Position numbers and translations under genes: made by a program. A DNA stretch of 64,000 nucleotides. It comes from Methylococcus mesophilus. Its GTDB lineage: Bacteria > Pseudomonadota > Gammaproteobacteria > Methylococcales > Methylococcaceae. Every line of letters starts with the position of its first letter. Positions within the stretch are counted from its first letter, which is position 1. Under the pieces are notes generated by a model. It did no database searches and was not told the DNA's origin. It saw nothing but the letters and a program-made list of their open reading frames with translations. Shown here one piece after another: positions 399 to 34,146 of this stretch. Where the stretch lies: NCBI RefSeq assembly GCF_026247885.1, contig NZ_CP110921.1, forward strand, positions 124,001-188,000, written 5' to 3'.

Positions 399-1931
399 AT
401 GCAAGCATCACTCCCGGCTGCGCTCCGGCAGGCCGCAGCCCGCTTTTCGTCCCTTCCCGCCGTTTTGGCGGACGACCGGCCCATCGGGTTCGCCGAGTTC
501 GACCGCTCCTCCGACGCCATCGCCGCGGGGCTTGCCGCCCGTGGTGTCACCAAGGGGGAGCGCATCGGTCTCTACTGCATCAATTCCGCGGAATTTGCCC
601 TTGCCTACGTCGGTATCCTCAAGACCGGCGCCGTCGTCGTGCCCGTCAACCTGCTGCTCAGTGCCGAAGAGGTGCATTACAACCTTGCCGACGCCGGGGT
701 CAGCGGGCTGATCTATCACGGCCACGTCTCGGCAAATGCCTCCGCCGTGCTGGATCGGCTTCCCGGCCTGAAGGTCCGCGCCGGCATCGGCTGCGACGGT
801 TCGGACGGAGAGGTTTGGCGGGCCTTGCTGGAAGATGCCTGCGCGCCCCCGTCCGTCGAATTCGACGCTCTGGAAGACTTGGCCGCGATTCTCTACACCT
901 CCGGCACGACCGGTCATCCCAAGGGCGCGATGTTGACCCACGGCAATCTGCTGGCGAATACCGCGAGCGTGCGGGAGGCCCTGGACTGGCGTCCCGGCGA
1001 GGACCGGGTGTTGGTGGTGCTGCCGATGTTCCATGCCTTCGCGGCCACCGTCGGCATGCTCACGCCGCTCCTCCACGGCTGTGCCCTGGCGCCGCTGGCG
1101 AAATTCGAGCCGGACACGGTCGCCGACACCATTGGCCGGCACGGGGCCACCCTGTTTCTCGGCGTGCCCAGCATGTATGCCTTGCTGTGCCGGCTGCGTG
1201 ACGATCGAGTCGCTCGGTTCGGAACCATCCGCCTGTGCGTGTCCGGCGGCGCGGCCTTGCCGCCCACCGTCATGCAGCAGTTTCAGGCGCGTTTTGGCTT
1301 AGCCATTCACGAAGGCGACGGTCCCACCGAATGCTCGCCTGTCACCTGCGTCAACCCCGTGGGCGGCCCCGTCAAATGCGGCACGGTTGGCTTGCCGGTG
1401 CCGGGTGTGGAGATGAAGATCGTCGACGAGCAAGGCGCCGAACTGCCGGTCGGCGAGATGGGTGAAATCGCCGTGCGCGGCGCCAATGTCTTCAAAGGCT
1501 ACTGGAAGCAGCCCGAAGCCACTGAAGAAAGCTTTCGCGACGGCTGGTTCCTCACCGGTGACCTGGGGCATGTCGACGAGGACGGCTATTTCAGCATCGT
1601 CGACCGCAAGAAGGACCTCATCATCGTCAACGGCATGAACGTCTATCCAAGGGTGATCGAAGACGTATTGTGCCGGCATCCGGCGATCCGCGAGGTGGCC
1701 GTGGTCGGCGATCCGGACCCGTTGCACGGCGAGCGGGTCGTGGCCTATGTCGTATTGGAAACCCTCGCCACCGAGGCGGAAATCCGCGCGTGGTGCAAAC
1801 CCTATCTGGGGCGGCACGAGATCCCCCGCCATGTCGTAGCGCTCGAGCAACTGCCCAGGAACGCCGCCGGCAAGATATTGAAGCGGCAGTTGCGGCGGCA
1901 GGGGGAAGTGGAGCGTGGGGTGGATGTCTGA
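399..1931 (+). CDS. Acyl-CoA synthetase (AMP-forming ligase)
   Basis: A 510-residue ANL-superfamily adenylating enzyme, close to full length for a long- or medium-chain acyl-CoA ligase. Visible core motifs: the phosphate-binding loop YTSGTTGHPKG (about residue 167), a DGPTE version of the usual YGxTE motif, the hinge region LTGDLGHVDEDGY, and the C-terminal catalytic lysine motif PRNAAGKILKRQL. It should activate a carboxylic acid with ATP to an acyl-AMP and then the CoA thioester in the cytoplasm. The substrate cannot be read from sequence. It converges on the diiron protein gene downstream across a hairpin terminator. Its place beside a diiron oxidase, a carbamoyltransferase and an AlkB-like hydroxylase suggests it feeds an acyl chain into a shared pathway, which is inference. 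Confidence 0.88.
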   Translation: MQASLPAALRQAAARFSSLPAVLADDRPIGFAEFDRSSDAIAAGLAARGVTKGERIGLYCINSAEFALAYVGILKTGAVVVPVNLLLSAEEVHYNLADAGVSGLIYHGHVSANASAVLDRLPGLKVRAGIGCDGSDGEVWRALLEDACAPPSVEFDALEDLAAILYTSGTTGHPKGAMLTHGNLLANTASVREALDWRPGEDRVLVVLPMFHAFAATVGMLTPLLHGCALAPLAKFEPDTVADTIGRHGATLFLGVPSMYALLCRLRDDRVARFGTIRLCVSGGAALPPTVMQQFQARFGLAIHEGDGPTECSPVTCVNPVGGPVKCGTVGLPVPGVEMKIVDEQGAELPVGEMGEIAVRGANVFKGYWKQPEATEESFRDGWFLTGDLGHVDEDGYFSIVDRKKDLIIVNGMNVYPRVIEDVLCRHPAIREVAVVGDPDPLHGERVVAYVVLETLATEAEIRAWCKPYLGRHEIPRHVVALEQLPRNAAGKILKRQLRRQGEVERGVDV

Positions 1932-1937
1932 GCCCCC

Positions 1938-1967
1938 CTTCGGCAGAGCGTTGCCGAAGCCTGTTTT
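1938..1967 (+). terminator. Hairpin terminator after the acyl-CoA ligase gene
   Basis: Perfect 8-bp arms CTTCGGCA (1938-1945) and TGCCGAAG (1952-1959) around a 6-base loop, followed by CCTGTTTT. It lies just after the ligase stop codon and touches the end of the convergent gene, so it may serve both transcripts. Confidence 0.6.
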
Positions 1968-3928
1968 CAACCTCGCCGGCTTCGTAGCTGGGAGCGAAGC
2001 CGCCAGGCCAGGCTCAGCCCGGCGGTGTAGAGCGAGAGATAGCCGGTCCAGATTCTCCTCCATACCTGGTGTGAAACCTCCGCGCCGCCCTTCCGTTCCA
2101 TTTCGTCCATGTAAATCATGACGGCATCCCTTGCCCGGGCGGCATGCCCGGAGGCGAGATTGTCGATGCTGAGGTGCAACTGGATGATGGCGGGGTCGAT
2201 CCCATGGTCGCGCAGCAGGTCGATCAGCCGCATGTAGCCGGCGCCGAGTCCGCTGAGTTCGATGGCGAGATTGAGACCGAGCAGTTCTGGGAAATAGCGG
2301 CGGGGGTCCTGGCCGATGGCGAGGAGGTAGACGGGTAGGTCGAAGGCGGCATCCAGGAAGCGCGGGTCATTGGCAAAGGCTTCGCTCGCGAACGGCGGCA
2401 GCCCGATGCCGAGGTCGTCGAGCAGGCGGCGGTAGACGTTGGGATGGTTGCGTTTGGGTCGGCCGTTGCCCAGTTCGTCGGCGTAGATTTTCAGCAGATG
2501 GCGGTTGATGGTATCCAGGTTTTCGGCAGCCGTGGCGATGCCGGCCAGCCAGCAGCCGTCGACCAGGATGGTGGGCGCGAGCTGGAGGATGACCCATCGG
2601 CAGAAATCCTTGCCGATCCGAGGCGGCACGGCGAGCGGGCGGTAACGCTCGATTTCGTGCCGGTATATGGCTTCGATGCGGGCGTGGAAAGCCGTCTCAT
2701 CGTAGGGGAAAAAACGGCGGTCACCTCGTTGCAGTTGCATGAAAAAGCGGGTCAGGCGGAGAGTCCGTTCTATGGCCTCGGTGGCTTGTCCGGGGATATC
2801 TGACGTCGACTCGGCGTCCAGCAGGGCGGTGTATAACGCACGCTTCGAGCGAGGGCCGGACTTTGGCCGTCGGTTCACGAGATTCGGCCGTGGAATGAAG
2901 GCCGAGCCGGTCGCCGCAATGCCGACGCTCCGGCGCTCATCTTCGATCCAGTCCAGCCAAACCCGCCGCTCGGCGGCATCGAACACGCCGAACATCGGTC
3001 CGCCGAAGTCCATGGCGCGGATCAGCCGGCTTTCTTCCGCGCAGGTTCGGTCCACGTAGGGCGAATCGCGCAGCGCGTCGAGCAGCGGTTCCGGACCGGC
3101 CTGCGCCAGCCATTCATCGAGGCTGCGTCCGGCGAGCAAGACCCTGCCGTGATGGCCGAGGGCATGGGCGCGTTTGGCCTGGACGATACTGGCCATCGCT
3201 TCTCTGGCCTGGAGTCGGCGGGCCAATTGGCCGGCGGCTTCCTGGAGCAGTTCGGTGAACGACAGGCAGTAAAGGGACCAGCCGGCCTGGACGCGACCTT
3301 CGTCGCGATCCGTGCAAGCCTCCAGCGCGGTGCGGGCCAACGCGCGGCAGTGGCCGGTTTCGGCTGCATCGCCGTCATCCCACCAATCCGGTTCCCGCAG
3401 GCTGTGGGCCAGAGTCCAACCCAGCAGTTCCGGGAAGTAGCTGCGCGGGCGATGGAACAGGCAAAGCTGGACGGCCGGCAGCGCCCAGGCGAAATCGGGA
3501 ATGTTGGGAGCGTGAAAGAAGGTGGGATCGTCCAGGGCAGGCAGAGTCGCGCCGGCGAGGGTGAGCTTTGCCCGGAACTTCAAGGGAGCCGAGGTGGCGG
3601 GCTCGTCGAGGCCGACGCTGCGGCAATACAGTTCGAACAGCTGGCATTCGGCGAGGCGGTGCGCCGTGGCCGGCCGCGCGGCGCGGGCCAGCCAGATTCC
3701 ATCCAGCAAAAGCGTCGGCGCCAGGGCGAGAAGCACGATGCGCCGTCCGGCTTCTTCTTTTGGATTGGGCCGGACCGGTGGCGACCAGGGATTCCCGAAG
3801 CTCGGGAGCGTGCCGGCCTGCACGGCCTTAGCGAGCGTCGACTCGAAGAATTCCGATGCCCCCCGAAGCGTCTCGGCATCGGCGGGACCGTGCAGCAGCG
3901 CCCGGCACAGGCCGCGCAGCCCGGTCAT
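1967..3928 (-). CDS. Tandem haem-oxygenase-like diiron protein (HDO family)
   Basis: A 653-residue protein made of two related halves of the iron-containing redox enzyme / haem-oxygenase-like superfamily. Each half has the APTLLLDGIWLA / APTILVDGCWLA helix and the YFPELLG helix. The C-terminal half keeps the family's likely iron ligands: Glu in YADELGNG (about 483), His in NHPNVY (about 493), Glu in IELSG (about 555) and the His/Asp/His set in LHLSIDN and SGHA (about 582-595). In the N-terminal half most of these are replaced. Family members with known function oxidatively cleave fatty acids to alkenes or N-oxygenate amines; which applies here is unknown. The start is ATG at 3928, overlapping the carbamoyltransferase stop by 4 bases, so the two are probably co-translated. 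Open frame continues upstream but only as antisense-frame noise inside the neighbour. Confidence 0.75.
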   Translation of the reverse strand: MTGLRGLCRALLHGPADAETLRGASEFFESTLAKAVQAGTLPSFGNPWSPPVRPNPKEEAGRRIVLLALAPTLLLDGIWLARAARPATAHRLAECQLFELYCRSVGLDEPATSAPLKFRAKLTLAGATLPALDDPTFFHAPNIPDFAWALPAVQLCLFHRPRSYFPELLGWTLAHSLREPDWWDDGDAAETGHCRALARTALEACTDRDEGRVQAGWSLYCLSFTELLQEAAGQLARRLQAREAMASIVQAKRAHALGHHGRVLLAGRSLDEWLAQAGPEPLLDALRDSPYVDRTCAEESRLIRAMDFGGPMFGVFDAAERRVWLDWIEDERRSVGIAATGSAFIPRPNLVNRRPKSGPRSKRALYTALLDAESTSDIPGQATEAIERTLRLTRFFMQLQRGDRRFFPYDETAFHARIEAIYRHEIERYRPLAVPPRIGKDFCRWVILQLAPTILVDGCWLAGIATAAENLDTINRHLLKIYADELGNGRPKRNHPNVYRRLLDDLGIGLPPFASEAFANDPRFLDAAFDLPVYLLAIGQDPRRYFPELLGLNLAIELSGLGAGYMRLIDLLRDHGIDPAIIQLHLSIDNLASGHAARARDAVMIYMDEMERKGGAEVSHQVWRRIWTGYLSLYTAGLSLAWRLRSQLRSRRG

Positions 3929-5688
3929 GGCAGTGTCTCCGGTTTGGTGAAGAGATAATCGCCGGCGACCAGGGCGTCCAGGCCCGATCCCAGGAATACA
4001 CCGAAGGCGTCTTCCATGCTGTGCACCATGGGCTTCCCCATGACGTTGAAACTGGTGTTGAGCAATACCGGCACCCCACTCAGCCGGTGGAATGCTTCCA
4101 GAAGGGCATGAAAGCGCGGATTCCAACTCTGTTTGACGGTCTGCAACCGGCCGGTACCGTCCACATGCACCACCGCCGGCACCCGCTTCCGTGCCTCCGG
4201 CCGGAACCGCAGGGTACGCTCCATGTACCGGGATTCCTGATAGGCCTCGAACCAGTCGGGGCCGTGTTCGTGCAGGATGGCGGGAGCATAGGGCCGGAAG
4301 CGTTCGCGGAACTTTACCTCGCGGTTGATGCGCTCGCCGGTTTCGGCATGGCGGGGATCGGCCAGGATGGAGCGGTTGCCGAGCGAGCGGGGGCCGAATT
4401 CGGCCTTGCCCTGAAGCCAGCCCAGGACCTTGCCTTGGGTCAGCAGTTCGGCCGCGCTGCCGATGAGGGCATCTCCGGGGAGGTGCCGAACCGGCAAGCC
4501 GGCGTAGCGGGCGAAGCGTTCGATGTCCGGGGCCGCGATTTCGCTGCCGAGATAAGGGGAGAGACCGCCCGGTTCGAAGGATTGCCCGGGGTGATCTTCC
4601 CGGAAGGCGAGCCATGCCGCCCCCAGCGCGGTGCCGTCGTCGGCCGGCGCCGGCGGCACGTACAGCGCCCGGAACGGCGTCCCGCCCGGAATCTGGCCGT
4701 TGCATACCGAGTTCAGCGCGCAGCCGCCGGCCAGCGCGAGGTGTTCGGAAAATCCGCGAGCGTGGAAGTTGGCGAGCAGCCGATTGACGGTTTCGGCGAA
4801 AAAAAGCTGGCCTGTATGGGCGAGGTCGGCAGCGGCTTCCGGCGCTTGCTCCGGATGCCGCCGGCGGGATTCGAGCCGTTGCAGCCGGTCGAAAAACACA
4901 TCGTGGCCGGTCTTCAGGCGCAGGCCGTCCACCTGCATCATGTCCCGTAGCCAGCCCATCACTTCCGCGTCCGCGCGCCCGTAGGAGGCGAGCCCCATGA
5001 CTTTCCATTCCTCGCCGCCGAGCCAGTCGAATCCGCAGAGTTCGGTGAGCTTCATATAGTAGAATCCCAGACTCTGCGGTCCCTCGAGTTTGGCCACGGG
5101 GCGCAGCCGGCCGTTGCGGTAGTCGAAGAACGCCATCGATCCGGTTTCGCCGTATGAGTCGATCACGGCGCAGGCCGCGGTCTCGAAGGGGCTGCCGTAA
5201 CAGGCCAGCGCGGCATGGCTGAGGTGGTGGTCGTAGCCCCGGATACGGACCGGGACGCCGGGAAAATCGCGGCGCAGGCTTCGTGCAAGGTTGAGCAGCC
5301 GGCTTTTCAAGGCATGGTGCTGGGCGGCTTGCATATGATAGAGCTGATGGGGCTCCAGCCAGGCATGGAGCCGGCGGCCTGCATCGGCAAGGATGCCCTC
5401 AGGCGACAGCCATCCCAGCCAGCGTGCGAGATGCTCGTGCAGAGGGCGCGACTCCTGCCAGTTGCAGGCAATGACGAATTCGTCGGCGTCGGCGCAATGC
5501 GCGTGCAACAGTGCAGGCGTTTGGAACAGGTCGTCTGGCGGGGCGTTCAAGGCCCGCTTGCTCTGGAGCCGGCGCTCGGCGGCTTCGGCGAACAGGATGC
5601 CGCCGTCCGGACCGACGATCGCCAGGGCCGGATCATGGTAGGTCAGGCACAGGCCGAGATAATAGGTTCTCGCTTTTGATGGCCGCAT
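3925..5688 (-). CDS. O-carbamoyltransferase, NodU/CmcH/TobZ family
   Basis: A 587-residue carbamoyltransferase from the ATG at 5688 (a TTG at 5703 could add five residues; no clear ribosome site separates them). The N-terminal Kae1/ASKHA-like half has the metal-binding DHHLSHAALACYGS segment and a following DSYGE motif; the C-terminal half has GPRSLGNRSILADPR, typical of the YrdC-like carbamoyl-phosphate domain. Known members make a carbamoyl adenylate from carbamoyl phosphate and ATP and pass it to a hydroxyl on a natural product such as a Nod factor, cephem or tobramycin. The acceptor here is unknown; the divergent AlkB-like hydroxylase could create the hydroxyl. It is translationally coupled to the tandem diiron protein. 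Confidence 0.88.
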   Translation of the reverse strand: MRPSKARTYYLGLCLTYHDPALAIVGPDGGILFAEAAERRLQSKRALNAPPDDLFQTPALLHAHCADADEFVIACNWQESRPLHEHLARWLGWLSPEGILADAGRRLHAWLEPHQLYHMQAAQHHALKSRLLNLARSLRRDFPGVPVRIRGYDHHLSHAALACYGSPFETAACAVIDSYGETGSMAFFDYRNGRLRPVAKLEGPQSLGFYYMKLTELCGFDWLGGEEWKVMGLASYGRADAEVMGWLRDMMQVDGLRLKTGHDVFFDRLQRLESRRRHPEQAPEAAADLAHTGQLFFAETVNRLLANFHARGFSEHLALAGGCALNSVCNGQIPGGTPFRALYVPPAPADDGTALGAAWLAFREDHPGQSFEPGGLSPYLGSEIAAPDIERFARYAGLPVRHLPGDALIGSAAELLTQGKVLGWLQGKAEFGPRSLGNRSILADPRHAETGERINREVKFRERFRPYAPAILHEHGPDWFEAYQESRYMERTLRFRPEARKRVPAVVHVDGTGRLQTVKQSWNPRFHALLEAFHRLSGVPVLLNTSFNVMGKPMVHSMEDAFGVFLGSGLDALVAGDYLFTKPETLP

Positions 5689-5708
5689 CGTGAGGTTCCG
5701 CAAAGCCC

Positions 5709-6818
5709 ATGAGCATTCTATCGAAAACCCGATCGGAGGCCATTTGGCCGCTGCCGTGGTGGACCGGCTACGGACTCAGCCTGGTGTTTCCTCTGGCCGT
5801 GCTCGGGTTTCTCGCCACCGGTCCGCACCGGCCGGCGGCTGCGCTGCTCTGGACTCTGCCCATGCTCGGCCTGCTGCTGGCCGAGTATTTCGGTCCGGCG
5901 GAAACCCGCGTGGTGCAGGAAGATGCGCCGCATCTTTTCTTCGACGGCATCCTCTATTTGCTGGCCGGACTGCAGGTGCTGAACCTGATCCTGCTCGGCC
6001 GGCTGGTGTCGCAACTCGGCTGGACTGGATTTTCCGAAATCGTGGCGAGCCTGGCCGATATGTTCGCGATACGGGCGATGGTCTCCGCGGATTTCGTCTG
6101 CGCGGGCATCTGTCCGGCCCATGAGCTGATGCATCGGCGCTCCCGTCTGCAACGAAGGCTGGGACGGCTGCTGCTCGCCTCGCTCGGCTACGACCATTTC
6201 TACGTCGCGCACAAGCAGGGACATCATGCCCGGCTGGGAACGGCCGACGACCCCTCGACTGCGCACAGAGGGGAGAACTTCGAGGATTTCTATCGGCGCG
6301 GGCTTCGCCAGCAATGGCGCATCGCCTGGTCGGACCGGCGGGGGGCGGCGGTGGCGGGGTTGGTGTTCGAACTGGCATGGCTGGCGCTCTACGCCGCGCT
6401 GTTCGGCTTGCTGGCAGCACTGGTGCTGCTGCATCAGGCGCGAGGCGCGGTACGGACCCTGGAATCGGTGAATTATTTCCAGCACTACGGCCTGACCGAA
6501 GATTCCGGCCAGAGCGGGGCGATCGCATGGCGCAATGATTCGGCCCTCAGCCTGTTCATGTTCCTCGGGCTCAGCCGCCATGCCGATCACCATCTTCGGC
6601 CCGGCGTGAGCTATGCGGAGTTGCGGACTACGCCGAAGGGACCGGGGATGCCTTATGGCTATATGGGCATGGCGCTGTGGGTGCAACGCCGGAACGAGAG
6701 CTACCGTCGATGGGCCGAAGCGCACCTTGAACGGGTCGCTGCTTCAGAGAGCGCTTGGTCGACGCGGCGAACACCTGGGGTCAGGCAATCGGAAGCGGGT
6801 CTTGTGGAAACACCGTGA
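5709..6818 (+). CDS. AlkB-like integral-membrane diiron hydroxylase
   Basis: A 369-residue polytopic membrane protein with the histidine boxes of the alkane 1-monooxygenase / fatty acid desaturase superfamily: HELMH (about 138), HKQGHH followed by GTADDPSTA (about 168), NYFQHYG (about 254) and LSRHADHH (about 288). At least four hydrophobic segments lie in the N-terminal 130 residues and about residues 215-245. Textbook AlkB has EHxxGHH and NYxEHYG; here His replaces the first Glu and Gln the second, so this is a divergent branch. It should use O2 and electrons from a rubredoxin-type donor, which is not encoded nearby. It is divergent from the carbamoyltransferase with almost no gap. The last ~40 residues are low-complexity and probably dispensable. 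Confidence 0.82.
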   Translation: MSILSKTRSEAIWPLPWWTGYGLSLVFPLAVLGFLATGPHRPAAALLWTLPMLGLLLAEYFGPAETRVVQEDAPHLFFDGILYLLAGLQVLNLILLGRLVSQLGWTGFSEIVASLADMFAIRAMVSADFVCAGICPAHELMHRRSRLQRRLGRLLLASLGYDHFYVAHKQGHHARLGTADDPSTAHRGENFEDFYRRGLRQQWRIAWSDRRGAAVAGLVFELAWLALYAALFGLLAALVLLHQARGAVRTLESVNYFQHYGLTEDSGQSGAIAWRNDSALSLFMFLGLSRHADHHLRPGVSYAELRTTPKGPGMPYGYMGMALWVQRRNESYRRWAEAHLERVAASESAWSTRRTPGVRQSEAGLVETP

Positions 6819-6834
6819 GAGACGCCTGACGGAT

Positions 6835-7240
6835 TCAGTCCCGCTCGGTTTTCAGGATTTTGCCACTGACGTCCAATTCGAGTTCGAGTTCCTCGCCATT
6901 CTCTTTGAGCTCGACCTCATACCCGGTGACCGTGCCATCGGGTTCATTATTTTCTCCGCTTCCTTCACCTTGCCTTTCGGATATGCGCTTGTGACGGCCT
7001 GAATGACGGGATCAGGCAGCGCCTTGCTGTCGATTTCCTCTTCCTTCTGCAGAAGGAAGCCGTGAGCGTCGTAGAGGGGCTCGTATTCCCTGTCGCTCTC
7101 CTCGTGCTCCACTTCATAAGCGACCTTGCCTTCGACGGTTTCCTTCTCAAACTCTACGCCTTTGACATGGGGATAGGCGTTTTCGAAGGCTTAGACCAGC
7201 ATCTTGGGCACCTGCCGCCTGCTCAGTTCCTGTTCCTCGC
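6835..7240 (-). pseudogene. Decayed PepSY-like periplasmic protein gene
   Basis: Reading the minus strand, three pieces of one PepSY-like protein can be stitched together. The first reads ELSRRQVPKMLV, then a TAA near 7192, then AFENAYPHVKGVEFEKE and a second PepSY unit ending KVKEAEKI. A one-base loss near 6947 shifts the frame, after which EPDGTVTGYEVELKENG and a natural C-terminus ending KTERD follow, with the stop at 6835-6837. A further in-frame stop lies upstream near 7265. At least two lesions mean no full protein is made, unless the lesions are sequencing errors. Intact relatives are small exported proteins with two PepSY-like repeats. Confidence 0.65.
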
Positions 7241-7406
7241 CCCGGGCGTGCCCAGGCGCCAGTCAAGGGGTAACCAGCACCGCCGTAGCCAAGATTCGGG
7301 TTTTCGTACTTCCTTGTCGGGTGGAACTGAATGAGCGCTGCAAAGCCCGCGATCACAGGCCTTAAAACACCCGAAGATCAATGACACAGCAACAAGAAAA
7401 TCGCTG

Positions 7407-7436
7407 TTGACTACCTTCTGCTCTTATCGTGTAGGA
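7407..7436 (+). promoter_or_regulatory. Weak candidate promoter for chrBA
   Basis: TTGACT at 7407-7412 is followed by the weak -10-like TAGGAT at 7432-7437 after a 19-base spacer. It lies about 30 bases upstream of the ChrB start, in the only AT-richer stretch before the operon. The -10 is poor, so activation or another promoter is possible. Confidence 0.3.
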
Positions 7437-7468
7437 TATTCAACACAAACGTTATATAAGAACAATAA

Positions 7469-8419
7469 ATGAAATACTCTTGGCTGGTCCTTATCCTCAC
7501 TCTGCCCACTCATAACGCCACCGGCCGCATGCGCGTCTGGCGCGCGCTCAAAGCCGTCGGGTGCGGTGTATTGCGGGATGGCGTCTATCTTTTGCCCAAC
7601 CGGCCGGGACATAGGCAGGCCTTGCGGGTGCAGGCCGAAGAGGTGGTCGCCGGAGGGGGCAGCGCCCACGTACTGGTTCTGGACGGCGAGAATCAGGAGC
7701 AACAGCAGACTTTTGAGGCGCTGTTCGACCGTTCAAGCGAATACGGCAAGCTGGTCGATGCGGTCCGGCAAGCTGTCGATCTGGAACTGGAATCGGCGGA
7801 ACCCGCCCGCCTGCGAAGGCAAGTGACACGGCTGCGCAAGGAATTCGAGACGGTCGCGGCCTTGGATTACTTCCCCGGTGCCGCGCGCGACCAAGCCGCC
7901 GCGGCGTTGGAAGAGTTGGAGCATGCGGCGAGCGACCGGTTGACGCCGGATGAGCCCCATGCCGCCCACCGGCGGATCAAGCGGCTGCAGCTCAAGGATT
8001 ATCAGGGCCGGCTTTGGGCCACCCGCCGCCGTCCCTGGGTTGACCGCCTCGCCAGCGCCTGGCTGGTCCGGCGCTTCCTTGACCCCGAAGCCCGTTTTCT
8101 CTGGCTGGCCTCGCCGGCCGATTGTCCTCCTGATGCGGTGGGCTTCGATTTCGATGGCGCAGCTTTCACCCATGTGGGTGCCAAGGTCACCTTCGAAGTG
8201 CTGCTGGCCAGCTTTGGCTTGACGGACGCCGCCCTGCAACGCCTGGGGGCGCTGGTGCGCTACCTGGATGTCGGCGGAATCCCGGTTCCGGAAGCGGCAG
8301 GGCTGGAAGCACTCATGCGGGGCATGCATCAGCGGCTGGCGGATGACGACGCTCTCCTGGCCGAAGCACAAGAGGTATTCGATTCCTTCCATCAGGCCTT
8401 TTCGGAAAACGGCGCATGA
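7469..8419 (+). CDS. chrB: Chromate resistance protein ChrB
   Basis: A 316-residue full-length ChrB. The N-terminal half ([27 protein letters not shown], shown as separate parts: [11 protein letters not shown] and [13 protein letters not shown]) is the winged-helix-like ChrB-N region; the C-terminal half has [19 protein letters not shown] and [12 protein letters not shown], typical of the ChrB-C domain. ChrB acts as a chromate-responsive regulator and is needed for high-level resistance in characterised operons. Its TGA overlaps the ATG of chrA (ATGA), so the two are co-translated. Known chr operons place chrB directly before chrA, as here. Confidence 0.88.
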
Positions 8420-9792
8420 ACATCTCCCAATCGACACCCGTCCGGCCCCCGGTTCCAACTTTGGGACAAGCCTTCTGGTACTGGCTCAAGCTCGGCTTCA
8501 TCAGTTTCGGCGGTCCCGCAGGGCAGATTGCCATCATGCACCACGACCTGGTCGAGAAAAAACGCTGGATTTCCGAGCGCCGTTACCTGCATGCCCTCAA
8601 TTACTGCATGCTGCTGCCGGGGCCGGAAGCCCAGCAACTGGCGACCTATATCGGCTGGCTGATGCACCGCACCTGGGGCGGCGTGATCGCCGGCGGACTG
8701 TTCGTCCTGCCCTCGCTGCTGATCTTGATCCTGCTGGGCTGGATTTACCTGGCATTCGGCCAGGTACCTGCCGTTGCCGGCGTACTGTACGGCATCAAGC
8801 CGGCGGTGACCGCCATCGTGGTGTTCGCGGCTTACCGCATTGGCTCTCGCGCCTTGAAGAATTGGGTGTTATGGGGCACGGCGGCGTTGGCGTTCGTGGC
8901 CATCTTCGTCTTTGATGCACCCTTTCCCCTGATCGTGCTGGGGGCGGCGGTCCTGGGCGCCATTGGCGGAAAACTCATGCCGCGGAAATTCGCCTTGGGT
9001 GGCGGCCATGGCCCGGCCAAGGACAATTACGGCCCTGCGCTCATTGACGATGACACGCCGGTTCCCGCTCATGCCCGCTTCACCTGGGCGGGACTACTCA
9101 AAGTCGTCCTGGCGGGCTTGATCCTCTGGGGCGCTGCGATCGGCTTCCTCGGCGCGCGCTACGGCTGGGACGGTGCGCTCACGCAGATGGGCTGGTTTTT
9201 CACCAAGGCGGCCCTCCTGACCTTCGGCGGCGCCTACGCGGTGCTCCCCTACGTCTACCAGGGCGCGGTCGAGCATTACCAATGGCTGACTCCCCCTCAG
9301 ATGATCGACGGCCTCGCCTTGGGCGAGACCACGCCGGGACCGCTCATCATGGTCGTGACCTTCGTCGGGTTCGTCGCCGGCTGGGCCAAGGCGCTGTTCG
9401 GCTCGGACCAGCTTTTTCTTGCGGGCGCCACAGCCGCTTTCGTGGTGACCTATTTCACTTTCCTGCCCAGTTTCTTGTTCATCTTGGCCGGCGGCCCCCT
9501 GGTGGAATCCACCCACGGCAATCTCAAGTTCACTGCCCCACTGACGGCAATCACCGCCGCTGTGGTGGGCGTCATCCTCAATCTGGCCGCGTTCTTTGCC
9601 TGGCACGTGTTCTGGCCGCAAGGCCCTTCGGGACTTTTCGACAGGGTTGCCGCCCTGATCGGTTTGGGTGCGCTGCTGGCGCTGTTTCGCTACAGGATCG
9701 GGGTTATTCCGCTGATCGGCGCCTCGGGCCTCGCCGGGCTTTTGTTCACTTTCCTCCCGCCCTGGCTGATCCAGGCGGGAGTGCTGCCATGA
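8416..9792 (+). CDS. chrA: Chromate efflux transporter ChrA
   Basis: A 458-residue inner-membrane protein with the two homologous CHR domains of long-chain ChrA. Domain 1 carries [19 protein letters not shown] and [16 protein letters not shown]; domain 2 carries the matching [20 protein letters not shown] and [20 protein letters not shown] long linker with basic and acidic residues separates the halves. ChrA expels chromate from the cytoplasm using the proton motive force. It overlaps chrB upstream, and its stop overlaps the start of a small truncated exported reading frame downstream (ATGA again). Confidence 0.93.
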
Positions 9793-29994: not shown

Positions 29995-30218
29995 TTGGCG
30001 AGTTCCCGAAGCACATTGCGCCGCCGCTTCATGATTTCCTCGGCCTCGCTCATTTGCCGCTCGAAGCCGGGATCGTAGCCCAAGATGTGGAAGCCGTCGG
30101 GCGACTCGGCCAGGAACACAGCGTCGCCCTTCTCCAACTTCAGCCGCGCCAAGACTTCTTTGGGCAGAATCACTCCGACGGAATCGCCGATCTGGGTCAG
30201 TCTGAGGGTGTAGTGCAT
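29991..30218 (-). CDS. AbrB/MazE-type antitoxin
   Basis: A 75-residue protein with a SpoVT/AbrB swapped-hairpin DNA-binding domain: TLRLTQIGDSVGVILPKEVL and LKLEKGDAVFLAESPDGF. The C-terminal 30 residues (ERQMSEAEEIMKRRRNVLREL) would form the helix that neutralises a toxin. Its stop overlaps a GTG that opens only a 19-codon frame, so no functional toxin follows. It is likely an orphan antitoxin or a remnant of a toxin-antitoxin pair that may still act as a DNA-binding protein. Confidence 0.8.
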   Translation of the reverse strand: MHYTLRLTQIGDSVGVILPKEVLARLKLEKGDAVFLAESPDGFHILGYDPGFERQMSEAEEIMKRRRNVLRELAK

Positions 30219-30336
30219 GGCGGCTCCCGGTCGATGTTATAACGACAGCTATGCTACCGATTACAGGCTGGTTGTGGAAACAAAGCAACGTATGCCAATA
30301 CCCTATGCCATCCGGTTCCTATGGTACTTCAAACGC

Positions 30337-30765
30337 TCAGAACGTTTCCGCCCAGCGTTCCCAGAATCCCGGTTCATCGTGATGCGCATTTTTCATGGCG
30401 CTTTCCAGCGACAAATACCAAAATTCCACCTGTGGTTGCCGCATGCTGCCATCCGGATTTTCTAGGAAATCCCGTAGGAAGCAATAGCGTTGATCGCTCT
30501 CGTCAAGCGGTATATCGATATATATCTGTCCCCGATAGGACCTAAGGGAATTCTCATTGGCAAAATCCCCGCAGGGCTGCCAAGTGTAGCCATGTTCTTC
30601 CAGCCATGCGAGCACTCGCTGGCGTACGGCGTCATGGCGATATTCATAATTGCGCTCCGATTCGGGACGGAATCCATGAGCGCTATCAGGATGGAAAGTC
30701 AAATACAACACGCCTCGTTTCTTTTCACGGGCGATGGCATCGATGTGCTGAATGAGTTGTGGCAT
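30337..30765 (-). CDS. Hypothetical protein, 142 aa
   Basis: Not recognised. A soluble protein starting MPQLIQHIDAIAREK, with YLTFHPDSAHGFRPESERNY, a helical RVLAWLEEHGYTW stretch, GQIYIDIPLDESDQRYCFLR and a C-terminal WERWAETF. No signal peptide or membrane helix. The size and the VLYLTFH/YIDIPLD beta segments resemble small accessory-region proteins near toxin-antitoxin genes, but no role can be assigned. It stands alone between an orphan antitoxin and a membrane protein gene, all on the minus strand. Confidence 0.6.
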   Translation of the reverse strand: MPQLIQHIDAIAREKKRGVLYLTFHPDSAHGFRPESERNYEYRHDAVRQRVLAWLEEHGYTWQPCGDFANENSLRSYRGQIYIDIPLDESDQRYCFLRDFLENPDGSMRQPQVEFWYLSLESAMKNAHHDEPGFWERWAETF

Positions 30766-30830
30766 AGCGGCGGCTCCGAAGGGGAATACGTTCTAAGTAT
30801 ACGATTGCAACTGGTTGTTAGTTTGGCGGC

Positions 30831-31406
30831 TCACTCCTTGGGCAGTTCCTTGTGCGCGTCGACGACGGTGTAGGTTGTCTTTGGCTTGGAGAGATTTTTT
30901 GTAAGCTCATCTATTAGCACGCCCACAAATGTGCCGCCCGCGCCGATAACAACCCAGAGCGGCACGCCGATGCCGCCACCAAGCGCCGCAATACCAGCGC
31001 CGGCACTGCCGACCGTTGCGACGGTGGTGATAACCGCGCCAAGACCAAGACGTGATCCCCAAGAGCGCTCATCCCAACCAACGCGCTTCAGCTCGCGAGA
31101 CATTACCTTGATGAGCGGTGATATTGCCTTGCATTCGTTGGTGATTTTGACCGCCGCTGTGGCTTTTTTATGAATGGGTAGATTGCTCTCGCGAAATTGA
31201 ACCAATCGCTGCGCCCACGACAGTAATAGCTGTTGCTCATCCGGAGTGGTTGCCCGAACCACTGACTGAGCGACCGATGAGTGACTTGCCTGCTCTGTAT
31301 CCTCAACCACGAATCTCTCTTGACAGGGTAACAACGGTTTTACCACCGCTATATTACCGCGGCAGCCGAATTTGAGGTAAGGGATATCGGTTACTCCACT
31401 GTTCAT
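30831..31406 (-). CDS. Hypothetical membrane protein with Gly-rich hairpin
   Basis: A 191-residue protein of unknown function. The first 110 residues are soluble (KFGCRGNIAVVKPLLPC; SWAQRLVQFRESNLPIHKK). Residues about 125-180 form a Gly/Ala-rich hydrophobic hairpin (AVITTVATVGSAGAGIAALG then GVPLWVVIGAGGTFVGVLID), which could insert in a membrane, and a short basic tail follows. Base composition is lower in GC than the neighbouring core genes, in keeping with an accessory origin. The Met at 31406 was chosen because the frame upstream overlaps vapC in antisense-like noise. Toxin or immunity-type roles are possible but not shown. Confidence 0.55.
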   Translation of the reverse strand: MNSGVTDIPYLKFGCRGNIAVVKPLLPCQERFVVEDTEQASHSSVAQSVVRATTPDEQQLLLSWAQRLVQFRESNLPIHKKATAAVKITNECKAISPLIKVMSRELKRVGWDERSWGSRLGLGAVITTVATVGSAGAGIAALGGGIGVPLWVVIGAGGTFVGVLIDELTKNLSKPKTTYTVVDAHKELPKE

Positions 31407-31437
31407 GGGGAAGGCTTTCAACAGAAACTCGGGCCCG

Positions 31438-31842
31438 TCACGATCCGCGCGTCCAATTTTCGACCGCCAAGCCCGGATAGCCGGTGAAATCGGCCTCATT
31501 GTTGGTGACCAGGACAGCGCCCAGGCTCACGGCATGCGCGGCGATCAAGCGATCCAAGGCATTCCGGCGGCAACCCGGCACCGCGGCGCGCAAAGCCCCG
31601 TAGGCGAGCGCGGCGCCCTCGTCGAAAGGCAGGAACGGCACCCGCTTGAGGAACAACTCCAGAACCCGCTCGTTGTGCTGGCGCGTATCCGTCAGTTTTT
31701 CGATCCCGACCCGAAGCTCAGCGTAGGTAATGACCGAAATGCCGACATCCCCGACCTTGAGCGCACGGAATCGTGAAGCCAGCGCCGGGGGCTGCCGGTG
31801 TATCAGATAGATGCAGATGTTGGTGTCGAGCAGGTACTTCAT
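31438..31842 (-). CDS. vapC: VapC-type PIN-domain ribonuclease toxin
   Basis: A 134-residue PIN domain. The acidic active site is complete: Asp in YLLDTNICIYL (residue 6), Glu in ITYAELRVGIE, Asp in RNALDRLIAAHAV and the Asn/Asp of LVTNNEADFTG. VapC toxins cut initiator tRNA or rRNA and are held off by VapB. The ATG overlaps the vapB stop by 4 bases, the usual arrangement, so the pair is co-translated and autoregulated through VapB. Confidence 0.92.
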   Translation of the reverse strand: MKYLLDTNICIYLIHRQPPALASRFRALKVGDVGISVITYAELRVGIEKLTDTRQHNERVLELFLKRVPFLPFDEGAALAYGALRAAVPGCRRNALDRLIAAHAVSLGAVLVTNNEADFTGYPGLAVENWTRGS

Positions 31843-32117
31843 TGTTCAAGCCGTTCCTCCTGGATTGAGAACGGGCCGAAGGTTTCCCAGTCCCGATCCC
31901 GTTCCGGCGACTCCTCGCGCCCCTCAAGCATGAATTCGGGGGAAAACATCGCCAGAATGTCCGTCACGTCCGCCAGGCTCTCCTGCGCCACGGGCCGAAT
32001 CACGAGCGTGTTGCCTACCCGTTCGATTTCGACCTGCTGCGCCACTTCGGCAATGGCCAGTTCCTTGGGAATCCGGATGGCGAGAGAATTCCCGCTTTTG
32101 AAAATTCGGGTCAGCAT
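31839..32117 (-). CDS. vapB: VapB-type AbrB-fold antitoxin
   Basis: A 92-residue antitoxin with an N-terminal SpoVT/AbrB domain (LTRIFKSGNSLAIRIPKEL; VEIERVGNTLVIRPV) and an acidic C-terminal arm (MLEGREESPERDRDWE) ending in FGPFSIQEERLEQ that should occupy the VapC active site. The ATG at 32117 has GAGG eight bases upstream; starts further up have no support. It is coupled to vapC. Confidence 0.9.
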   Translation of the reverse strand: MLTRIFKSGNSLAIRIPKELAIAEVAQQVEIERVGNTLVIRPVAQESLADVTDILAMFSPEFMLEGREESPERDRDWETFGPFSIQEERLEQ

Positions 32118-32273
32118 CGTTTCATCCTCAAAAGTATGTATATCCATGATATACACCCTGCAAGCAGACAGCAATGCGGGAAGAGCGGCAGACCCTTATC
32201 GTCTTATAGACCGCGGCTCCCGCTGTCGCAGACGGCGGCTATGCTGGAACGCCCATTCCCGCGCATCCGTCCA

Positions 32274-32558
32274 ATGCCAAACAGAAACGACCCGTCCCGA
32301 CCAGCAACCAAAGTCCCGAGCCCCGCGGAACGCGCAGCCCTGTGCCGCCTCAACGCCTATTTGGCAGAACTGGAGAACCTCATCGTGACCGAGGCGATAG
32401 TCGCCGATCGGGCTTTGCTGGCGCGCAAACACGATCCCGCCGATCCGATGAACGATTACGTTGCACTTGGTACTTTAAACTGCCTAATAAAGTTAGTCAG
32501 GACGGTCTGGAGATCATGCTTAAGATTCTTGATTTCTCCAATTTGTTGTTTTAAATAG
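32274..32558 (+). pseudogene. Gene start truncated by an AT-rich insertion
   Basis: From ATG at 32274 the frame reads like a GC-rich host gene (ERAALCRLNAYLAELENLIV, ADRALLARKHDPADPMNDY) until about 32458. Base composition then drops sharply and the frame runs on as noise to a stop at 32558, antisense to the AT-rich gene. This is best read as the first 60 codons of a resident gene cut off by the incoming cassette. The original product is not recognisable. Confidence 0.4.
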
Positions 32559-32983
32559 ATGAAGTTACCGTCCACTATAGTCGGCTCATTTAGCTCGTAC
32601 CCCCTGGTTTTTACATCAGTTTTTCGTTGTAGCTCAAGTTCAGCCATCAAGAGGGTTTGGTTGTCTCGAAAATCGATGTATAACCAAAGCGTCCCTACAT
32701 CTTTTTCATCCTTATCTCGAATCCATATATATGATCCCACCCATGCCCTATCGTATTGCCATGTCCGTTTTCCGTCGGTCTTGGGGTGAATTTCTATATT
32801 GATCGAGTCGCGGTGTAATTGTGCATTGAATACCTGGCCGATTTCATTGATGTTATCTGTCAAGACTTGTTTGGTGATGTCCGCCATAATGCTACTCCCT
32901 CGATATATCGCACGGATTATATTAAGATATGGAGTGCCTGGATTGAACATTGCATCTAGAAAAGAGGAATCATTCGCATTCAT
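32456..32983 (-). CDS. Hypothetical AT-rich partner of the HTH-nuclease
   Basis: A 175-residue protein of unknown function with GC content far below its surroundings. It has an alpha/beta body (INIEIHPKTDGKRTWQYDRA, WVGSYIWIRDKDEKDVGTLW, LYIDFRDNQTLLMAELELQ) and a helical C-terminus (IGEIKNLKHDLQTVLTNFI). The ATG at 32983 overlaps the upstream nuclease stop (ATGA) and has GGAG eight bases ahead; an internal ATG at 32887 with GGGAG is a second possible start giving 143 residues. The coupling implies it works with the nuclease, as an accessory or immunity protein. Confidence 0.6.
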   Translation of the reverse strand: MNANDSSFLDAMFNPGTPYLNIIRAIYRGSSIMADITKQVLTDNINEIGQVFNAQLHRDSINIEIHPKTDGKRTWQYDRAWVGSYIWIRDKDEKDVGTLWLYIDFRDNQTLLMAELELQRKTDVKTRGYELNEPTIVDGNFIYLKQQIGEIKNLKHDLQTVLTNFIRQFKVPSAT

Positions 32984-34026
32984 TTTGTTCTCTCCGCAAA
33001 TTCATTCAAGTAGTCTGCCGCTCGCGAATTAGGCTGATGTCTGTCGATATTAAGATTTAATACACTAACTTCAAGAAGTCCTGTCAATAATAATAAGGAA
33101 GTCTTAGTGTAGATTGAAAAATCTCCGCCAATTTGGGAAATGATGACTCGTAAGTTTTTTAGAAAATCTTCCCATTGAACAAAATCAAATCCGTAGGCTG
33201 ACGAATTGGCTGAAACACCATTTACCAGTGCTACAGGAGAAAATGATTTGTATATCTGTTCTAAGGAGAGTAAGTACCCTACATTCTTTAACATGTCAGC
33301 ATTGTTTGCGTGCGTCAATTTGGTTTCGATGATAAGAGCTTCGTCGTCAGGATAGACGGCTGCGATATCCAAGCGGCCTTGTTTGTTTAAATGGCCGTGA
33401 TCAACAAACAATTCCCTATAAACAGTTTTAGGATATTCAGCTGAGCTCTTCTTGGCGTTTCTCCCAAAAGCCCTGAATGATGAGTTTTTTGGGAGTAATT
33501 TGATAATTTCAGCCAATACATCGTTTACCTGGTTTTCATTTTTTAGCTTGATGGCTCTATAGATATTACTGTATAGGAGCGGCTCACTGCCTAATTTTGC
33601 TTCGGATATGGATACGATATTATTAAGTTGCCTTGATAATTCATCTTCGTAATTTTTATGTGCCAATAAAATTGATTTAATTATGTCGGTTGGAAACGGA
33701 ATCGATCCTAATTTATCCTGCAGGCAAGATTGTTCGGCGGTTAATCTGTCGTCGATAGAGCCTTGTCTAAAATTTTTTCCAAGTGCTGAATACGTAAAAA
33801 TAAGTTGCGTTAGCTTGTAACCTTCAATATGTTTTAAATGCATATATCGCCTTTTCCATTCTTCAATGTCTACGGCACTCCACAAAGGCGATGCAGCGGT
33901 TATTTGAACAGGGGGGGGGAAACCCAGGTAACGAGTGGTGTGCCACCTACTCGTCGTGCTTGGACTGCTGCCTAGGAAACGAGCAACATCGCGTAGAGAA
34001 AGAAGTTCAAGTTTATTTGGAGACAT
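32980..34026 (-). CDS. AlpA-like HTH fused to PD-(D/E)XK nuclease-like domain
   Basis: A 348-residue AT-rich gene. The N-terminus is an AlpA/excisionase-like helix-turn-helix (LLSLRDVARFLGSSPSTTSR; FPPPVQ; SAVDIEEWKRR). A helical middle of about 150 residues follows. The C-terminal domain contains KQGRLDIAAVYPDDEALIIETKL, read in parts as GRLDIAAVYP and ALIIETKLTHAN: the Asp, then Glu-x-Lys about 13 residues on, is the PD-(D/E)XK nuclease core, and HNNAD/MLKNVGYLLSLEQIY follows. No exact family is recognised. The start could be 34026 or 34035. It is co-translated with the small gene after it. A sequence-specific nuclease or a defence effector is the best guess. Confidence 0.62.
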   Translation of the reverse strand: MSPNKLELLSLRDVARFLGSSPSTTSRWHTTRYLGFPPPVQITAASPLWSAVDIEEWKRRYMHLKHIEGYKLTQLIFTYSALGKNFRQGSIDDRLTAEQSCLQDKLGSIPFPTDIIKSILLAHKNYEDELSRQLNNIVSISEAKLGSEPLLYSNIYRAIKLKNENQVNDVLAEIIKLLPKNSSFRAFGRNAKKSSAEYPKTVYRELFVDHGHLNKQGRLDIAAVYPDDEALIIETKLTHANNADMLKNVGYLLSLEQIYKSFSPVALVNGVSANSSAYGFDFVQWEDFLKNLRVIISQIGGDFSIYTKTSLLLLTGLLEVSVLNLNIDRHQPNSRAADYLNEFAERTK

Positions 34027-34146
34027 GATGGCCATAGAAAAAATAATGTTCGAATGAAAAACATCGTTCCACATGAAAATTCTAGCAATCGATTGGTCGA
34101 ATTTCAAGACCGCTGGGAGACCGATGCTAGTGAACAAACCTAGAGT

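Follow-up and report, generated by a model that had tools for sequence, protein, structure and literature searches.

A carbamoyltransferase, a duplicated haem-oxygenase-like protein and an AlkB-like hydroxylase form a conserved gene trio in Methylococcus mesophilus and its relatives

We analysed a stretch of 64,000 nucleotides (nt) from Methylococcus mesophilus (contig NZ_CP110921.1, positions 124,001 to 188,000; hereafter the window), whose genome is a single contig of 4.34 Mb, and concentrated on four tightly packed genes near its beginning. Three of these, encoding a carbamoyltransferase (CT), a two-copy haem-oxygenase-like (HDO) protein and an AlkB-like membrane hydroxylase, constitute a conserved, co-inherited unit, referred to below as the trio, while the fourth, an acyl-CoA-ligase-like gene, looks like a chance neighbour. 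Pfam and structure matches confirm that all four open reading frames (ORFs) are real and belong to the families assigned to them in the original prediction, which was made from the sequence of this locus and joined the four in a single route. The genes and their features, with protein lengths in amino acids (aa), are as follows.

5709..6818, plus strand: AlkB-like integral-membrane hydroxylase, 369 aa, PF00487, divergent from the CT gene
5689..5708, no strand: gap of 20 nt between the divergent CT and hydroxylase start codons
3925..5688, minus strand: TobZ/NodU-type CT, 587 aa
3925..3928, minus strand: ATGA overlap of the CT stop and the HDO start, 4 nt, translational coupling likely
1967..3928, minus strand: two-copy HDO protein, 653 aa from the ATG at 3928, PF14518
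3404..3736, minus strand: N-terminal HDO copy (pseudo-HDO), residues 65-175, without the first metal-ligand pair
2939..3193, minus strand: conserved HDO middle segment, residues ~246-330, with G.HGR..L.GRSLD.W and FGGPMFGVF
2042..2599, minus strand: C-terminal HDO domain, probable catalytic site, residues 444-629, PF14518 (E 6.7e-24)
399..1931, plus strand: acyl-CoA-ligase-like AMP-binding enzyme, PF00501, a neighbour outside the conserved unit

The layout agrees with the earlier description of co-translated CT and HDO genes, which share the ATGA, and of a hydroxylase gene that diverges from them across almost no gap.

Profile searches with each trio protein were run against the window's own genome and 150 relatives (151 in all), with bit-score limits that we set to divide trio-type proteins from distant relatives. 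Of the 80 genomes matched by the AlkB-like profile, these limits removed 16, of which 14 belong to family f6 and two (G026, G104) have fragments; of the 97 matched by the CT profile they removed 34, which hold weaker CT relatives only. With these limits, HDO is found in 64 genomes, the AlkB-like hydroxylase in 64 and CT in 63; 60 genomes carry all three and 66 carry any of them. This nearly all-or-none pattern gives pairwise Fisher p values of 7e-36 to 7e-39, which are only descriptive because the 151 genomes are related. Incomplete sets comprise HDO without a strong hydroxylase match (G020, G064), HDO without a strong CT match (G014, G020, G035) and hydroxylase with CT but no HDO (G030, G070); five of the six genomes concerned are drafts of at least 250 contigs, and the remaining one, G020, has 40 contigs and a completeness of 89%. 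A housekeeping role for CT orthologues elsewhere, named in the original prediction as a reason to abandon it, was not seen, as strong trio-type CT occurs in 63 of the 151 genomes and 61 of these also have HDO. The trio is found in part of the Methylococcales, the window's order being placed by kinship to Methylococcus capsulatus, whose strain Texas (L001) carries it.

The arrangement of the genes was compared in 41 loci, namely the window and stretches of 5-19 kb round the HDO gene in 40 genomes out of the 63 further ones that carry HDO. All three genes lie within one stretch in 35 loci, in two gene orders: the hydroxylase gene is divergent from CT-HDO in 26 and all three are on one strand in nine. 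Thus, co-localisation survives rearrangement. Three of the six loci that lack the full trio are contig ends (L039, L048, L051). Half of the divergent loci (13 of 26) have 17-20 nt between the two start codons and the others have from 12 nt to 4.2 kb, and the 4-nt overlap of CT and HDO is seen in 13 of the 39 loci that have both genes. Clustering of ORFs of at least 90 aa found no further neighbour in more than eight of the 41 loci. The pairwise distance matrices of the three proteins agree with one another (r 0.93, 0.92 and 0.94 over 32 loci), which is what co-inheritance would lead one to expect, although the species tree could by itself account for some of the correlation.

The same comparison bears on the ligase, which matches PF00501 (E 4.7e-93) and has its nearest relatives among long-chain acyl-CoA ligases (PRK06187, for which it scores 470.9 bits with the cut-off at 476). 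A route in which it activates a fatty acid that HDO and the AlkB-like enzyme then oxidise and CT carbamoylates would suit this likeness and the close spacing of the genes in the window, G003 and G001. However, these are the only three of the 41 loci in which the ligase gene adjoins the trio, and no close ligase lies within the stretch in the other 38, several of which are short. Elsewhere in the genus, orthologues with 87-92% identity are found ~18, 14 and 52 kb from the trio (G002, G005 and G004, respectively), and outside the three adjoining loci the close orthologues in the HDO-bearing genomes tested lie at least 14 kb away or on another contig. Among 29 genomes that we picked (22 with HDO and seven without), a close orthologue, defined as at least 58% identical, is present in 17 of the 22 and one of the seven; it is lacking in the HDO-bearing G009, G013, G017, G102 and G143 and present in the HDO-free G043. 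This pattern tracks family membership at least as well as it tracks the trio, since all but one of the seven genomes without HDO belong to families other than the window's. A different adenylation enzyme, 26-28% identical to the ligase, is close to the trio in four g15 loci, which offers the four-gene route some support and suggests that an activating enzyme may serve a larger pathway variant there. The ligase was rejected as a fourth member, being adjacent in few loci, distant elsewhere and also present without the trio, and a route through all four enzymes is very improbable. Of the four-gene route as first proposed, the association of CT, HDO and AlkB-like genes as one conserved unit stands, whereas the acyl-activation step is not supported, its gene failing the co-occurrence of all four that the original prediction had set as its own test.

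The HDO protein of the window is matched by PF14518 in its C-terminal half only (85.1 bits against a cut-off of 28.9), and the same family is matched in 25 of 25 homologues at E <= 0.01. A profile of the C-terminal halves, searched against the 25 sequences, recovers the N-terminal half of the window protein at residues 65-175 with 61 bits (E 1.4e-19), and 23 of the 25 N-terminal halves score above the HMMER inclusion threshold, those of L066 and L069 falling below it. Thus, the protein is an internal duplication. Seven candidate ligand residues (E485, H495, E548, E557, H585, D589 and H595) are invariant in all 25 C-terminal halves and supply the three His and three carboxylates of an HDO ligand set, namely E485, H495, E557 or E548, H585, D589 and H595. 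Equivalents of E485 and H495 are absent from all 20 N-terminal halves that align at these positions, the remaining five being unaligned there, and the region of the last three ligands is aligned in few N-terminal halves. The counterpart of E548 is a Glu in 23 of the 25 N-terminal halves, which suggests that E548 may be structural. Judged from these alignments, the N-terminal half is a degenerate HDO copy and one complete metal site is predicted, in the C-terminal half, since the first Glu/His pair is missing from the other. The tandem diiron oxidase of the original prediction is therefore upheld as a duplicated fold but not as a pair of diiron sites, and two working sites were rejected for want of that first pair. 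Between the two copies lies the middle segment, with H260, G310 and M312 invariant; in other genomes of the class it also occurs in proteins of 439-557 aa, placed after an HDO fold that is present only once.

The CT matches PF16861 (E 9.4e-68) and PF02543 (E 2.2e-31) and has both Carbam_trans_N and Carbam_trans_C domains, at 110 and 227.5 bits against cut-offs of 24 and 27. Matches to solved structures score 193-223 bits and are best for the carbamoyltransferase 7xb6, the novobiocin enzyme and GdmN; the last two are known O-carbamoyltransferases, as is TobZ, with which the CT also aligns. His154, His155, His158, Asp177, Asp350 and Asp351 are invariant in 23 of 23 sequences; we take H154, H158, D177 and D350/D351 to be the metal-binding His/His/Asp/Asp of the Kae1-like half. 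The TobZ, GdmN, NovN and NodU enzymes, with which the CT shares the N and C domains, the HHxxH motif and the Asp residues, are found in polyketide, aminocoumarin, aminoglycoside or Nod-factor clusters; the trio enzyme differs in being partnered by an HDO gene. The sole NCBIfam match is NodU (NF041651, E 5.7e-45), at 154.1 bits against a cut-off of 1000, and the CT was rejected as NodU proper on that score. NodU carbamoylates Nod factor, and this match, with the membrane-bound look of the hydroxylase, gives some ground for supposing that CT carbamoylates a lipopolysaccharide-core or polysaccharide sugar while the oxygenases alter the lipid part. We consider such an envelope-glycan role improbable, given how far the score lies below the cut-off and given that no glycosyltransferase cluster was recognised among the recurring trio neighbours.

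The hydroxylase matches PF00487 (E 1.5e-20) and the AlkB structure 8f6t (E 3.6e-26, or 1.5e-57 by profile), and a simple hydropathy scan finds five hydrophobic stretches in it. Nine His are invariant in 23 of 23 aligned homologues, presumably the nine conserved His that are the AlkB hallmark within the FA_desaturase fold. It shares these His and the NYxxH and HxxHH motifs with AlkB alkane 1-monooxygenase (8f6t, 8sbb), but differs from it at position 258 (NYFQH), which is Gln in 21 of the 23 homologues and Glu in two, and in its biosynthetic-looking context. The guanitoxin enzyme GntB was rejected as an identity (NF041365, 13.4 bits against a cut-off of 380). Upstream of the hydroxylase gene, at 5650-5670 and within the start region of the CT gene, the AT-rich stretch GATAATAGG resembles a -10 box for the divergent transcript; conserved Tyr codons partly explain its AT-richness.

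Beyond the order, the HDO profile was run on a class sample of 369 genomes and an overlapping phylum sample of 398 genomes, the latter not chosen for alphaproteobacterial methanotrophs. It matches nine genomes of the class sample (including the window's own and G002) and 22 of the phylum sample. Six of 20 outgroup HDO loci have a CT gene within the stretch (L114, L116-L120) and the other 14 (L115, L121-L133) do not. The HDO-CT pair thus looks like the older unit, to which the AlkB-like enzyme was added in the Methylococcales, a direction that we infer. In L118 and L120, two of the paired loci, HDO and CT sit beside an ATP-grasp gene of the L-amino-acid-ligase type (its C-terminal domain above the Pfam cut-off in L120 and just below it in L118) and a TauD-family gene, so that the pair belongs here to another sort of cluster; an amino-acid-derived substrate is therefore possible for the trio too, beside the lipid or hydrocarbon of the original prediction. 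L116 and L119 hold a GDSL-like gene (matches below the cut-off), to which ORFs of L118 and L120 without a Pfam match look related by eye, and a PQQ alcohol dehydrogenase gene is near HDO in L114. In L117, a 1068-aa protein (5602-8805, minus strand) that combines a GDSL/AlgX-like region with both carbamoyltransferase domains is encoded between the CT and HDO genes, and that genome has three matches to PF02461, the methane/ammonia monooxygenase family. PF02461 is also matched in both genomes of family f36 (G178, G323), together with hopene cyclase. The HDO proteins of L121-L133, the CT-free loci, are of 439-557 aa and carry the GRSLD segment after the fold; a methyltransferase-like gene adjoins HDO in L122 (by Pfam) and, by eye, in L121.

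With CT, HDO and the AlkB-like enzyme forming one conserved, co-inherited unit, a single pathway is the natural reading. We think it somewhat likelier than the opposite that the trio is a dedicated three-enzyme pathway, kept together by selection, whose product is a small molecule that has been oxidised and O-carbamoylated. Enzymes of the AlkB family use rubredoxin in hydroxylating hydrophobic chains, HDOs oxidise C-H or N using O2, and TobZ-type enzymes transfer carbamoyl from carbamoyl phosphate to hydroxyls. By analogy, the AlkB-like membrane enzyme would hydroxylate a hydrophobic or membrane-associated precursor, with electrons from the single rubredoxin encoded in the genome, whose gene is unlinked to the trio and ~680 kb from it. 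The C-terminal diiron site of HDO could carry out a second O2-dependent oxidation, at C-H or N, and CT would transfer the carbamoyl group from carbamoyl phosphate, via carbamoyl-AMP, onto a hydroxyl. Scaffolding or substrate recognition is the probable role of the middle segment and of the N-terminal pseudo-HDO. We infer the action of all three enzymes on one molecule, the order of steps, the electron donor and the chemistry of each step.

Several observations weigh against a single three-enzyme pathway. The hydroxylase gene is on a separate contig in G024 and G052 (L056 and L069), where HDO lies well inside its own contig; in G006 (L074) CT and hydroxylase are on a different contig from HDO; and these separations look real. 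CT is likewise on a different contig from HDO and hydroxylase in G118 and G138, which are outside the set of 41 loci, and the hydroxylase gene is 4.2 kb away in G016. None of the 20 outgroup stretches, including the six with HDO and CT, contains an AlkB-like gene, and the hydroxylase could therefore act on something else. Of four trio-bearing genomes tested for PF02461, three have a match (G000, G058, G143), whereas G040, 94% complete, has none, so a strict link of the trio with methanotrophy is not supported. AlphaFold models of the whole HDO protein and of its C-terminal half, made with five sequences, were mostly helical but of a quality (mean pLDDT 42.4 and 43.5) that ruled out their use, so that the claims about its fold rest on sequence.

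If the oxidation by HDO falls on nitrogen, the trio might make a metal-binding group that CT and the hydroxylase tailor. The first Glu and His ligands of the C-terminal half are ten residues apart (E-x9-H), as are E215 and H225 of SznF in the available passages of PMC11705231, while the E86/H89 spacing of MboA in the part consulted of PMC13185094 is unlike it. The E-x9-H spacing is shared with 9pfw (E 0.011) and 9pfx, named PbrRohS (E 0.12), in weak alignments, and SznF E281 corresponds by its distance to H585 to E557 and not to E548. This is a hint, from residue spacing, at an N-oxygenase-like site. Additional support for a metallophore comes from the g15 trio loci (L043-L046), which have luciferase-like monooxygenase, stand-alone adenylation enzyme, GNAT and P450 genes in four of four and a TonB-dependent receptor gene in three of four (identities from ORF clustering, with Pfam on L044 only), and from the ATP-grasp and TauD genes of L118 and L120. 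However, one ligand-pair spacing is a weak guide to reaction type, and the D-to-H distance of six fits neither SznF (three) nor MboA (five). A cupin domain of the SznF type is also lacking, PF14518 being the sole Pfam match in the HDO protein, and ORF clustering of the 41 loci found no receptor or exporter recurring with the trio outside g15. A metallophore is accordingly an unlikely product, though least so in g15. A narrower version, in which HDO oxidises the nitrogen of the CT-installed carbamate to an N-hydroxycarbamate on a lipid anchor hydroxylated by the AlkB-like enzyme, is a long shot; if true, this hydroxamate-like, metal-binding group would define a new class of membrane-linked metallophore in copper- and iron-hungry methanotrophs.

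A doubtful alternative to the small-molecule pathway is that a bacteriohopanepolyol (BHP) is hydroxylated on its side chain by one of the oxygenases or by both and that CT makes a carbamoyl hopanoid. Methanotrophs make extra-hydroxylated aminopentol, which would suit such chemistry. Squalene-hopene cyclase is present in all 64 HDO-bearing genomes, HDO occurs in none of the 21 cyclase-free genomes among the 151, and both f36 genomes have HDO and cyclase. However, 20 named genomes of the 21 fall in two families (f6, f7), so that the link between cyclase and HDO is confounded by descent, and 66 cyclase-bearing genomes lack HDO. Among the five distant HDO+CT genomes outside f36, a cyclase match is present in G471 and G867 and absent in G629, G215 and G751; hopanoids are thus no requirement for the HDO-CT pair itself. 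No hopanoid gene was recognised among the recurring trio neighbours. Carbamoyl BHPs do exist, being reported from some Alphaproteobacteria in the passages available of PMC12583986, but that group was not specifically searched for the trio.

Comparison with known systems places the trio apart from each of them. HDO shares PF14518 with the superfamily of SznF, RohS, UndA, BesC, MboA and AetD, and its C-terminal half has three His and four invariant carboxylates, one of which is perhaps no ligand; the E-x9-H spacing is that of SznF and, in weak alignment, RohS. It differs in its duplicated fold, of which one copy has lost its site, in the middle segment GRSLD...FGGPMFGVF, in the lack of a cupin and in its carbamoyltransferase partner. 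The mangotoxin cluster mboABCDEF, as far as described in the portion seen of PMC13185094, likewise has an HDO gene in a small cluster without polyketide synthase (PKS) or nonribosomal peptide synthetase (NRPS), and pairs it with an ATP-grasp ligase gene. L118 and L120 hold an ATP-grasp gene too, but none recurs with the trio, and MboA has one HDO fold. A 'heme oxygenase' gene is among those changed in a Methylomonas polysaccharide band in the passages available of PMC11072679, with no link there to the trio HDO. The set is absent from the passages available of PMC13232832 (DtpC), PMC13108848, PMC6460317, PMC10724926 and PMC10849742, and a search of open-access text gave no description of it among the matches listed (the best 15 of 285 and the best 12 of 22). 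The earlier statement that no characterised pathway has such a set agrees with these open-access matches, most subscription papers being outside their scope. Each enzyme family is known, and the combination of CT, HDO and AlkB-like enzyme is, as far as could be seen, new. The trio is compact, is nearly always present whole or not at all among relatives of a much-studied methane oxidiser and, with no PKS or NRPS gene to cluster around, is probably missed by the usual cluster-finding programs. It would yield a carbamoylated metabolite or lipid not described before, which may serve as a biomarker or carry metal, and the pairing of HDO with carbamoyltransferase, also in unrelated clusters, points to unexplored HDO chemistry.

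Downstream of the hydroxylase gene, ChrB-like and chromate transporter genes occupy 7469-9792 on the plus strand. The original prediction had seen no transporter, but the chromate transporter (8416-9792, PF02417) is close by, though nothing connects it with the trio. Farther along the window, GC content falls to 0.44 at 32-34 kb, and the region of ~30200-34140, in which three ORFs tested gave no Pfam match, is perhaps an inserted island; by eye, a VapBC-like toxin-antitoxin pair lies within it at 31438-32174.

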